Assembly (NCBI GenBank): GCA_021788025.1
Contig: JAJYLE010000003.1
Location: 1-43,752 of the forward strand
Length of the DNA stretch: 43,752 bases
DNA from: Nitrospirota bacterium
GTDB lineage: Bacteria > Nitrospirota > Thermodesulfovibrionia > Thermodesulfovibrionales > JdFR-88
Direction of reading: 5' to 3'
Program-made: the position numbers and the translations under genes
The notes under the pieces: generated by a model
Database searches by the model: none
Seen by the model: only the letters and a program-made list of their open reading frames with translations
What the model was told of the DNA's origin: nothing
Part shown: positions 37,352-42,073 of the stretch, in pieces
Layout of the letters: every line of letters begins with the position of its first letter
How positions within the stretch are numbered: position 1 is the first letter of the stretch

Positions 37352-39037
37352 ATTCATCCGTTAGACTGGGCAATAATAGCCGCCTATATGGCGCTCTCGC
37401 TTGGGGTGGGCCTTTACTTCACAAAGAGGGCGTCTTCAAGCTTAAGCGAGTTTTTCCTCTCCGGCAGAAGCCTCCCGTGGTGGCTTGCAGGCACCTCGAT
37501 GGCTGCGGCAAGCTTCGCCGCGGACACCCCGCTTTATGTGACCGGGCTTGTAAGGGGACAAGGCATCTACGAAAACTGGCAGTGGTGGTGCTATATCCTC
37601 AGCGGCATGCTCTCGGTGTTCTTTTTCGCCAGGCTTTGGAGGAGGCTGGGCGTATTGACGGACGTGCAGTTGATAGACCTGAGATACGAGGGCCGCTCCG
37701 CCCGCATATTAAGGGGTTTCAAGGCCGTCTATTTCTCATTCGCCATTCACACGATAATCAAGGCGCAGATAATACTTGCCATGGCCAAGATACTGGAAGT
37801 TATCCTGGGCTGGGGAAAATGGGACGGCATACTGGTCTCCAGCGCGATAGTTCTGGCCTATTCCACGATGGCCGGATACTGGGGCGTGGTAGTGACGGAC
37901 TTCTTCCAGTTCATAATCGCCATGACTGGGGCCATCCTGCTGGCGGTTGTTTCGGTTCACAAAGCGGGCGGGCTTCCCCACATAATGGCAATCGTGCCGG
38001 CATCCAAACTGGCATTCTTCCCTTCCCCCGGAAAGGCCGCTTTCATGGCCTTCCTCGGGTACATAGGCCTTAGCTGGTGGTCCAAGTATTCTTCCGACGG
38101 CGGAGGGATAATCGTGCAGCGGATGGCATCTTCCAGGGATGAAAAGCAGAGCCTTCTGGCCACTTTTTATTTTAACGTGGTCACATTTGCAGCCAGGACA
38201 TGGCCGTGGGTGCTTGCCGCCCTCGCCTCCATGGTGCTATATCCTGTTCTCAAGGACAATGAAACGGCTTACCCGAAAATGGTGCTGGACCTGCTTCCCA
38301 CTGGACTGAAGGGATTGATGCTGTCCGCCTTTTTCGCGGCCTTCATGTCCTCCGTGGGCACGTACCTGAATCTTTCGTCGGCATATATGATTAACGACCT
38401 TTACAGGCCGTTTATCAAGCCGGATGCATCCGAAAGGCATTATTTAATGCTGTCCAGGCTTATCACCCTTGTGCTTGCGGGTGTGACTGCGCTTATTACA
38501 TATCACGTTTCATCCATAGTTGGGGTGTTCAAGTTTCTGATAGCTTTTGGCTCCGGCACCGGCCTGGTATATATAGCCAGATGGTTCTGGTGGCGGGTAA
38601 ACGCCTGGAGCGAAATATCGGCGATGATGGCCTCCACGGCCGTAAGCGCGTTCGTATACGAAAACAGGCTGTGCGCCGCCATGCCATTTTATGACAGGCT
38701 GGCCGCAATAATAGGGGTGTCCACCGTAATATGGATTGCGGTCACACTCCTTACAAAACCTGTTTCAAAGGAAAAGCTCAGGGCCTTTTATGAAAAGACA
38801 TTACCCGGAGGCCCCGGCTGGGGAGATATACGCAAAGGGTTCGAGGGCCGGGACGGAGGTAATTTTTCAAGGCCCTTTTATCTGTGGCTGCTTGGCTCGG
38901 TTTTCCTGGTAGGGCTTACGATGGGCATAGGCAAGATGATTTTCGGCTGGTACGCATCGGGCGCAGCCTGGCTGGCCCTGTCCTTTGCGGCAGCCCTGGC
39001 GCTGTGGCGCGGAGTAAAAAAAGGCGGCATTGTATAA
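37352..39037 (+). CDS. Sodium:solute symporter family transporter; proposed ATT start at 37352 (first ATG is 37388)
   Basis: (M)HPLDWAIIAAYMALSLGVGLYFTKRASSSLSEFFLSGRSLPWWLAGTSMAAASFAADTPLYVTGLV. Confidence 0.85.
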   Translation: MHPLDWAIIAAYMALSLGVGLYFTKRASSSLSEFFLSGRSLPWWLAGTSMAAASFAADTPLYVTGLVRGQGIYENWQWWCYILSGMLSVFFFARLWRRLGVLTDVQLIDLRYEGRSARILRGFKAVYFSFAIHTIIKAQIILAMAKILEVILGWGKWDGILVSSAIVLAYSTMAGYWGVVVTDFFQFIIAMTGAILLAVVSVHKAGGLPHIMAIVPASKLAFFPSPGKAAFMAFLGYIGLSWWSKYSSDGGGIIVQRMASSRDEKQSLLATFYFNVVTFAARTWPWVLAALASMVLYPVLKDNETAYPKMVLDLLPTGLKGLMLSAFFAAFMSSVGTYLNLSSAYMINDLYRPFIKPDASERHYLMLSRLITLVLAGVTALITYHVSSIVGVFKFLIAFGSGTGLVYIARWFWWRVNAWSEISAMMASTAVSAFVYENRLCAAMPFYDRLAAIIGVSTVIWIAVTLLTKPVSKEKLRAFYEKTLPGGPGWGDIRKGFEGRDGGNFSRPFYLWLLGSVFLVGLTMGIGKMIFGWYASGAAWLALSFAAALALWRGVKKGGIV

Positions 39038-39106
39038 ACTATTTATATGGATGATCAGCAAGTAAACCAGGGCTGCTGAAAACCAAGCGGAGGTGCCGGT
39101 GGGCAC

Positions 39107-39892
39107 TTGGACCAACAGGGCGTATGTCCCCTGCCCTTTTCCTCCAGCCAGGAGAAAACCGCGCCTGATGCCGGGGCAATCCGGCAGGCGATTCAAAAAA
39201 GATATGCGGCGGTGTCGGTAACCGCCTCCGGCAACTTCAGTTACAAAACAGGCAGGGCGGGCGCGGAACTGCTCGGCTATGATAAAGACCTGCTTGGCCG
39301 CATGCCGGATGAATTGATAGATTCCTTCTGCGGGGTTGGGAACCCTTTTACACTTGGCCCGGTCAATCCCGGTGATAAAGTTCTGGATATAGGCTGCGGG
39401 GCGGGATTCGACCTTGTGGCGGCAAGCTGCCTGGCTGGCAAAAACGGAAAGGTATGCGGTATAGACGTCACACCGGAGATGCTTGGGAAAGCGGGAAAGG
39501 TTTTGGCCGGATACTCGTGTTCCGCTTATGAATTAAAAGTTGCCGGGGCGGAGGAAATACCTTTTGAAGACGGCTCATTCGACATCGTTATCTCAAACGG
39601 CGTTCTTAATCTTTCTCCGGCCAAGGTAAATTGCTTCAAGGAAATATACCGAGTGCTCAAGCCTGGCGGCCGCCTCCAGATTGCAGACATTGTGCTGAAA
39701 GGTGAAAGGCCCGCAAGCGCAGACCCCCTTCGTGACTGGGCAACCTGAATAGGCGGCGCGGTCTCCGTGGCAGACCAGATGGATTTAATTAAAGCGGCCG
39801 GTTTTAAGGATGCTGAATTCGCCGGAGCTACGCCTGTATCTACTTCCAGTTTCACCGTTGGCGCACTCTTTAAGGCAAGGAAGCCGTTGTAA
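39107..39892 (+). CDS. ArsM/AS3MT-like SAM-dependent methyltransferase, candidate selenoprotein with in-frame TGA at 39746-39748
   Basis: SAM motif VLDIGCGAGFDLVAAS; EIYRVLKPGGRLQIADIVL; after the TGA the same frame reads IGGAVSVADQMDLIKAAGFKDAEFAGATPVSTSSFTVGALFKARKPL then TAA. Confidence 0.7.
39760..39776 (+). promoter_or_regulatory. Candidate bacterial SECIS hairpin
   Basis: GGTCT-CCGTGGC-AGACC; folding GGTCTC(CGTG)G-c-AGACC puts G in position 2 of the apical loop, with 17 nt between the TGA and the loop. Confidence 0.5.
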
Positions 39893-39925: not shown

Positions 39926-42073
39926 ATGGACTTTTCTGAACTTGTCTCTTTCGGCGCTCATCCGAAGATCGCCGGAACTCTTCCCGCTTCGGGCGGGATT
40001 TCTTTATATCCTCCGCAGGAAGAGGCGGTTAAGGCGGGGCTGTTTGAGCCTGGAACATCACTGGTTGTGGCCGCCCCCACCGCGTCCGGGAAAACCCTGA
40101 TAGCCGAGATGGCCGCACTGGACATCTTCCTGAAAAAAGGCGGCAAGGTTATATATCTGGTGCCGCTTCGGGCGCTTGCACGGGAAAAATATGAGGACTT
40201 CACCCGCAAATACGCAAACACCGGCTTAAGGATAGCGCAGAGCACAGGTGATTTTGACCGTGACGAACCCTGGCTTGCCCAGGCAGGGCTGATAATCACA
40301 ACCAACGAAAAGCTGGACTCCCTTCAGAGGCGGCGCTCCAGGCTGCTTGAAAACCTGGCTCTTGTGGTGGCCGACGAGGTGCATCTTCTTGGCGACGCCG
40401 GCAGGGGGCCAACGCTGGAGGTGGTGCTGACCAGGCTAAGGGCCGTTAAACGCGGGCTGAAAGTGATAGCCCTTAGCGCAACCATACCCAACGCAACTGA
40501 AATTGCGCATTGGCTGGACGCCAGGCTGGTGCAGTCCACATGGAGGCCGGTGCCGCTTAAAGAAGGTGTTTTCCATAACGGGGCGGTGATCTTTAATGAA
40601 GGCAGCGTAATATGGGTGGAGAAGAAGAGCGGCATAGATTCCGTTGACCTTTCCATCGAGACCATCGGCGAGGGCGGGCAGGCCCTTGTTTTCGTTGGCA
40701 CACGAAAATCCAGCGAGGCCCTTGCAAGGAAGGCGGGGCGTTACGTGGCAGACTTTTTATCGGAAGCGGACACTGATTTTCTGGAGAAGCTGTCAAAAGA
40801 CATACTGGCCGCCGCTTCGGAGCCCACAAAACTCACCAAACGCCTCTCTGAAAGCGTTAAGGAAGGCGCGGCCTTCCACCATGCGGGCATACCATACGCC
40901 CAAAGGAAGCTTGTGGAGGACGCCTTCAAATCAAACAGGCTGAAACTGCTTGCCGCAACCACCACGCTTGCCATGGGGCTTAACCTGCCTTCGCGCAGGG
41001 TTGTGATCAGGGACTGGTGGCGTTATGTGCCGGGGACGGGGATAAGCTCCATACCGGCCATCGAGGTAAAACAGATGGCGGGCAGGGCCGGCCGCCCAGG
41101 TTATGACAATTTCGGAGAAGCCGTGCTGGTGGCCAGAAGCAAGCGCGACGAGGGCCAGCTTTTCGATAAATACATACGCGGCGGTCCGGAGGAGATCGAA
41201 TCCGCACTGGCCAGCGAGGCCGCCCTCAGGGGCCATGTGCTGGCCTCCATAGCCGGGCTATTTACCAGGACCAGGCGGGACCTTATGGATTTCCTTGGCG
41301 CAACATTCTTTGCTTTCCAGTCCGGCAGCAACAGGCTGGAGGATGTAGCAGAAGACGTGCTGGAATTTTTGCACTCCGAAGGGCTGATAAATTTTTCCGG
41401 CGGGGCCGGATATTCAGCCACAAGGCTTGGGCACAGGATATCCGAGCTTTACCTGGACCCTTTGTCCGGCGTTATCTTCAGGGACGCGCTGTCCATGCAG
41501 AAGGAAAAACTGCCGTTCGCCCTGTTCCATATGCTTGCCATGGCCCCGGACATGATGACGCTCTCTTTCGGGAAAAAGGACTTTGACGAGCTTATGGAAA
41601 TCTTCAGCGTCCATGCTGAAACCCTGCTGGTTTCAAAGGAAGGCCTGGCCGCAACAGACCAGATGCTCTCGGAAATAAAGACCGCCTCTGTGCTGATGCA
41701 ATGGATTCTGGAGACCCCCGAGGAAAAGATAACAGACCACTTCGGCATAGGCCCCGGGGACCTGCGGACGATTGTGGAACTGGCGGACTGGCTGCTGTAC
41801 GCGGCGCAGGAGATTGCCAAGGCAATCGGAATGAAGGATGAGGCCAGGGCCATTTCGCCGCTCAGGGTAAGGGTGAATTACGGAGTGAAAGAGGAGTTAC
41901 TGGGCCTTGTAAGCCTTAAAGGTGTGGGCAGGATAAGGGCAAGGAGCCTTTATGAGGCAGGCGTTAAGGACGTAAGGGGAGTAAAGGACGCCAGCCTGGA
42001 GGTCCTTCAGAAGGTCCCGAAGATAGGGCATGCGCTTGCGCTGGACCTGAAAAAACAGACTGGCGAAGGCTAG
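39926..42073 (+). CDS. Hel308/Ski2-like superfamily 2 helicase
   Basis: AAPTASGKTLIAEMA, VVADEVHLLGDAGRGPTLEVVLTRLR, LSATIPNATEIAHWL, MAGRAGRPGYD; C-terminal GVKEELLGLVSLKGVGRIRARSLYEAG (HhH). Confidence 0.9.
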   Translation: MDFSELVSFGAHPKIAGTLPASGGISLYPPQEEAVKAGLFEPGTSLVVAAPTASGKTLIAEMAALDIFLKKGGKVIYLVPLRALAREKYEDFTRKYANTGLRIAQSTGDFDRDEPWLAQAGLIITTNEKLDSLQRRRSRLLENLALVVADEVHLLGDAGRGPTLEVVLTRLRAVKRGLKVIALSATIPNATEIAHWLDARLVQSTWRPVPLKEGVFHNGAVIFNEGSVIWVEKKSGIDSVDLSIETIGEGGQALVFVGTRKSSEALARKAGRYVADFLSEADTDFLEKLSKDILAAASEPTKLTKRLSESVKEGAAFHHAGIPYAQRKLVEDAFKSNRLKLLAATTTLAMGLNLPSRRVVIRDWWRYVPGTGISSIPAIEVKQMAGRAGRPGYDNFGEAVLVARSKRDEGQLFDKYIRGGPEEIESALASEAALRGHVLASIAGLFTRTRRDLMDFLGATFFAFQSGSNRLEDVAEDVLEFLHSEGLINFSGGAGYSATRLGHRISELYLDPLSGVIFRDALSMQKEKLPFALFHMLAMAPDMMTLSFGKKDFDELMEIFSVHAETLLVSKEGLAATDQMLSEIKTASVLMQWILETPEEKITDHFGIGPGDLRTIVELADWLLYAAQEIAKAIGMKDEARAISPLRVRVNYGVKEELLGLVSLKGVGRIRARSLYEAGVKDVRGVKDASLEVLQKVPKIGHALALDLKKQTGEG

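Follow-up and report, generated by a model that had tools for sequence, protein, structure and literature searches.

Does the in-frame TGA that interrupts an ArsM/AS3MT-like gene in a 43,752-nucleotide stretch of genomic DNA (the window) encode selenocysteine (Sec), and if so, what kind of methyltransferase is made from it? The initial annotation had described an open reading frame on the plus strand that continues through this TGA from 39107 to the TAA, ending at 39892, and had proposed a new, 261-residue selenoprotein acting on arsenic or another soft electrophile. Translation of 39107-39892 with TGA read as Sec (U) gave exactly the product described (...SADPLRDWAT-U-IGGAVSVADQMDLIKAAGFKDAEF...KARKPL*), in which the TGA (TGA-2, 39746..39748, plus strand) is followed by 47 in-frame codons that lead to the TAA at 39890-39892 and correspond to the C-terminus of the family. 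Phmmer alignments and a profile of the relatives both place TGA-2 on C224 of the Cyanidioschyzon ArsM (CmArsM) structures, confirming that it lies on the catalytic Cys of ArsM; in the full-length product derived below, it would specify residue 234 (Sec234).

To see what occupies this position elsewhere, we searched the same order (177 genomes) and the phylum (395 genomes) for relatives, took TGA as Sec when extracting their frames, and aligned the products to the profile. The same gene with an internal TGA is present in many families. The window gene belongs to a clade of 24 genomes (tree support 100/99) in which the catalytic column is TGA in 24/24 members; homologues outside the clade carry either TGA (several paralogous branches) or the Cys codons TGC/TGT at this column. 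Among the rows examined, the column held no TAA, no TAG and no sense codon other than Cys, so it behaves like the Sec/Cys pair of a selenoprotein rather than like a set of random stops. An in-frame TGA that aligns with Cys in homologues is thus found for Sec234, which supports, from sequence comparison, the original proposal that TGA-2 is read as Sec at the catalytic position. In several paralogous ArsM-like branches of the order (loci L066-L070, L072-L075, L079 and L080), TGA likewise occupies the column of the catalytic Cys, in some cases with the canonical Cys174 retained, and these genomes appear often to use Sec here. One further relative (L065; G076:C125:3679-4440) is disrupted by multiple stops (three TGA, two TAG) and by changes of frame, and is either a pseudogene or an assembly error. 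No relatives of the gene were found on viral contigs, and the neighbourhoods of 13 relatives had no neighbour gene in common beyond small groups of relatives.

The 5' end of the gene as first described had to be corrected. The TTG at 39107 is merely the first start codon 3' of another in-frame TGA (TGA-1, 39077..39079, plus strand), upstream of which an ATG at 39047 opens the same frame; the stop of the preceding gene lies at 39037. Reading from this ATG gives MDDQQVNQGC-U-KPSGGAGG as the N-terminus. Since the relatives show that this part belongs to the gene, having similar first residues (MDDQQVN.. / LDDQQKN.. / MDDKAID..) and in many cases a good ribosome-binding site ahead of the upstream start, the gene most likely extends from the ATG at 39047 to the TAA at 39890-39892 (39047..39892, plus strand) and encodes 281 residues with two predicted Sec (Sec11 and Sec234), instead of the 261 residues with a single Sec that had been proposed. 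Of the 24 clade members, 19 have the added 20-residue N-terminal tail (39047..39106, plus strand), which contains Sec11, and the remaining five lack it; TGA-1 is conserved in 19/19 tailed members. Its typical motif is U-[PA]-P-[SATG]-G-G-x-G-G-C, as in LDDQQKNISAPPS-U-PPSGGAGGC, MDDKAIDKAAPPS-U-PPSGGTGGC and MQEKQKHIQAGSS-U-APASGTGGC, and variation among the codons 3' of TGA-1 is greatest at the third position, as coding sequence would show. The tail is rich in Gly and Pro, and an AlphaFold2 model predicts residues 1-36 to be disordered. Matching the tail pattern against the rest of the order returned seven ArsM genes and two chance matches, with no other protein found carrying it, and a pattern search for a Cys form in the 395 phylum genomes returned only two matches, both due to chance; the classic Sec/Cys pair is therefore lacking for Sec11. 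A comparison of synonymous with nonsynonymous sites between the two congeners yielded too few changes to be decisive. The tree allows, without proving, a single origin of the tail.

If both TGAs are decoded as Sec, each should be accompanied by a local RNA signal, and a stem-loop in fixed register is indeed present just downstream of each of them. Hairpin 2 (39760..39776, plus strand; stem GGTCT/AGACC), which follows TGA-2, is paired in 97% of cells across 22 sequences, with two-sided changes in four of its six pairs. Hairpin 1 (39093..39106, plus strand; stem GTGCC/GGCAC, loop GGTG), which begins 13 nt after TGA-1 and is also recovered in folds, is paired in 88% of cells across 18 sequences, with two-sided changes in three of five pairs. 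In counts that ignore the relatedness of the sequences, 0/500 shuffles were as good as hairpin 2 for pairing and covariation, and all slid registers were far worse, while hairpin 1 was equalled by 2-4/500 shuffles for the change and covariation measures and by 17/500 for pairing; these counts support selection on hairpin structure without proving it. The loops contain G and, in most members, are located 17-18 nt past the UGA, and bacterial SECIS elements share a small apical loop with a guanosine (PMC1088965). Neither hairpin matched an Rfam family.

The genome also encodes most of the machinery for Sec insertion. It contains selA, selB and selD, for which the initial annotation had asked as a check, and selD itself carries a TGA, whereas an intact tRNA-Sec was not found in this draft: of twelve candidates, all were assigned to other tRNAs by ARAGORN except two that could not be resolved singly. 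A tRNA-Sec is present in most relatives and in the congener, where it is clear. A search of the draft with the congener's locus uncovered only a lone 3' piece of tRNA-Sec, comprising the T arm, the 3' strand of the acceptor and CCA, on the minus strand at G000:C27:8638-8680 (L142), about 720 bp from a contig end and with no intact tRNA around it. An element that integrated at tRNA-Sec may have left this piece behind as a copy of its att site. We infer that the intact gene fell into an assembly gap, because the Sec genes would otherwise be useless in this genome. Two molybdopterin oxidoreductase genes (C149:18403-19587 and C197:1316-2761) each have an in-frame TGA as well; in the former, a SECIS_3-like match falls short of the gathering score.

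As for the protein itself, its top matches among models, structures, profile and fold comparisons are all arsenite methyltransferases, and the AlphaFold2 model (mean pLDDT 83, pTM 0.80) has a confident methyltransferase core, so that sequence and fold agree on the ArsM/AS3MT family. The neighbours tested encode a sodium:solute symporter, an archaeal-type helicase, T2SS protein G and a response regulator. The helicase gene comes next after the methyltransferase gene (39926-42073, plus strand) and encodes a 715-residue, Hel308-like DEAD-box protein with archaeal helicase domain 4 (PF21280) and HHH_5; the genome that hosts it looks like a bacterial one.

Could the TGAs be true stops in a pseudogene, or sequencing errors? 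The draft without an intact tRNA-Sec and the one broken relative, L065, would fit such an explanation, but the same TGA recurs in 24 separate genomes, with both TGAs in 19 of them and never TAA or TAG, and the sequence is conserved on either side of the TGAs, the hairpins covary and Sec machinery is present; we have rejected this explanation as strongly contradicted and give it next to no weight. It is also rather improbable, if less remote, that in this genus the protein has a single Sec, with Sec234 being real, translation starting at the TTG at 39107 and the tail with TGA-1 being a decaying remnant or a leader. Relatives without the tail do exist, the terminal Cys of the tail seen in most relatives has been lost in this genus, and a GGAGGT lies 12 nt ahead of the TTG, while the ATG at 39047 has only a weak and distant ribosome-binding site. 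Yet this GGAGG run doubles as coding sequence for the conserved Gly motif, both congeners keep TGA-1 together with an intact 5-pair hairpin, and the MDDQQVN that begins the longer product matches the LDDQQKN of another family. Moreover, the upstream start lies 10 nt past the stop of the preceding gene, which would make re-initiation plausible.

A further rival reading concerns the substrate: the protein might simply be an active arsenite methyltransferase, a standard ArsM in which Sec replaces Cys224. The nearest solved relatives are arsenite methyltransferases, an ArsM selenoprotein is on record as experimentally verified (PMC9312934 Table 1), and some ArsM enzymes have two Cys or just one (PMC6950371, PMC8649762), so that arsenic could be the substrate. 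Against this stands the metal site: the three As(III)-binding Cys of CmArsM (72, 174 and 224) correspond here to Val97, Gly185 (39599..39601, plus strand) and Sec234, so the three-Cys site is not preserved. In alignments of the clade, the Cys174 position is Gly in 24/24 members and the Cys72 position is Val or Ile, whereas in the Cyanidioschyzon enzyme the first methylation needs all three Cys and the second needs Cys174 and Cys224, making Cys174 necessary for both steps (PMC6950371). An invariant Cys (24/24) does occur two residues ahead of the Cys72 position, as Cys95 (39329..39331, plus strand). Furthermore, the genome had no acr3 match, and no ars genes were recognised among the immediate neighbours examined. 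Because the Cys72 and Cys174 ligands are lost, arsenite methylation is at most a possible activity of this protein, and we regard an ordinary arsenite methyltransferase as an unlikely description of it; the arsenic substrate proposed at the outset is not supported.

We therefore favour, at a probability of roughly 0.8, the reading that the gene encodes a predicted SAM-dependent methyltransferase of 281 residues with the ArsM/AS3MT fold and two Sec. What this retains of the initial annotation is the Sec at the catalytic position; its new family, product length and arsenic substrate are not supported. In the mechanism that we envisage, the SelB system would insert both Sec, with a separate bSECIS-like hairpin downstream of each UGA, and Sec234 would take the place of the catalytic, soft-metal-binding Cys224 of ArsM. 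Together with the invariant Cys95, Sec234 might hold a trivalent soft electrophile beside SAM. This could be an arsenical, for example a methylarsenical bound to thiol, or else a different metalloid or a metal. Sec11 on the tail could then swing in, either as a mobile third ligand or as a selenol that reduces or releases the product, with the Cys that ends the tail motif in most relatives acting along with it, and SAM would methylate the bound centre. The mobile-ligand role of Sec11 is put forward tentatively and is a doubtful part of this scheme. Somewhat better placed, though still short of probable, is the broader proposal of a new double-Sec architecture, in which an ArsM fold has given up the Cys174 ligand and pairs a selenol in the active site with another on a mobile N-terminal arm, probably for a substrate other than inorganic arsenite, and which is conserved in several families drawn from more than one class of a single phylum. 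Since standard reading cuts the gene twice, at the 5' and at the 3' end, N-terminal Sec tails may also be overlooked elsewhere.

How does this protein compare with known selenoproteins? Selenoprotein lists have included a Sec-containing arsenite methyltransferase since 2008 or earlier (PMC2398784, GOS list), and it appears in PMC9312934, PMC5029168 and PMC13188914, with the motif UxxG in the tables of the first and last of these, and three NCBI models describe multi-Sec ArsM proteins (PMC13188914); the claim to a new selenoprotein thus does not hold for the catalytic Sec. The listed Sec-containing arsenite methyltransferase (PRK11873/NF008823) shares with the window protein an ArsM domain whose UxxG motif carries Sec, but it is listed with one Sec, whereas the window protein adds the N-terminal Sec tail and lacks Cys174, and scores 172 bits against the NF008823 cut-off of 263. 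The best-matching models across the whole core are the multi-Sec NF041537 (ArsM/AhpD), NF041536 (ArsM/DUF2284) and NF047649 (methyltransferase/UXPK-star), which likewise combine an ArsM-type domain carrying Sec at UxxG with further Sec. The window protein reaches about 269, 247-249 and 250 bits with them, below the respective cut-offs of 510, 575 and 460, and the matches end where the ArsM domain ends; the extra Sec of these proteins resides in a C-terminal partner (AhpD, DUF2284) or motif (UXPK-star) that is absent from the window protein. The window protein is thus below the cut-offs of its four best ArsM models, none of which covers residues 1-35, and the literature on ArsM selenoproteins, covered incompletely for the most relevant recent papers, yielded no description of an N-terminal tail. 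By analogy with the multi-Sec fusions, this branch may have arrived more than once at a second selenol in cis.

With the CmArsM, CrArsM and human AS3MT structures (4fr0, 6cx6, 5evj and 8xt7), the window protein has the fold, the SAM site and the Cys224 position in common at about 25-32% identity, but these structures are without Sec, and their three-Cys arsenic site is replaced by Val97, Gly185 and Sec234 plus Cys95. While ArsM selenoproteins have been catalogued, their chemistry is largely obscure, and the clade offers defined residues with which to probe what soft substrate is methylated and why two selenols are needed, since it unites a catalytic-position Sec with another Sec on a flexible arm at the N-terminus and has lost the standard arsenic ligands. 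ArsM selenoproteins, including multi-Sec fusions, are known, and the variant with an N-terminal Sec tail appears, from the comparisons made here, to be new.
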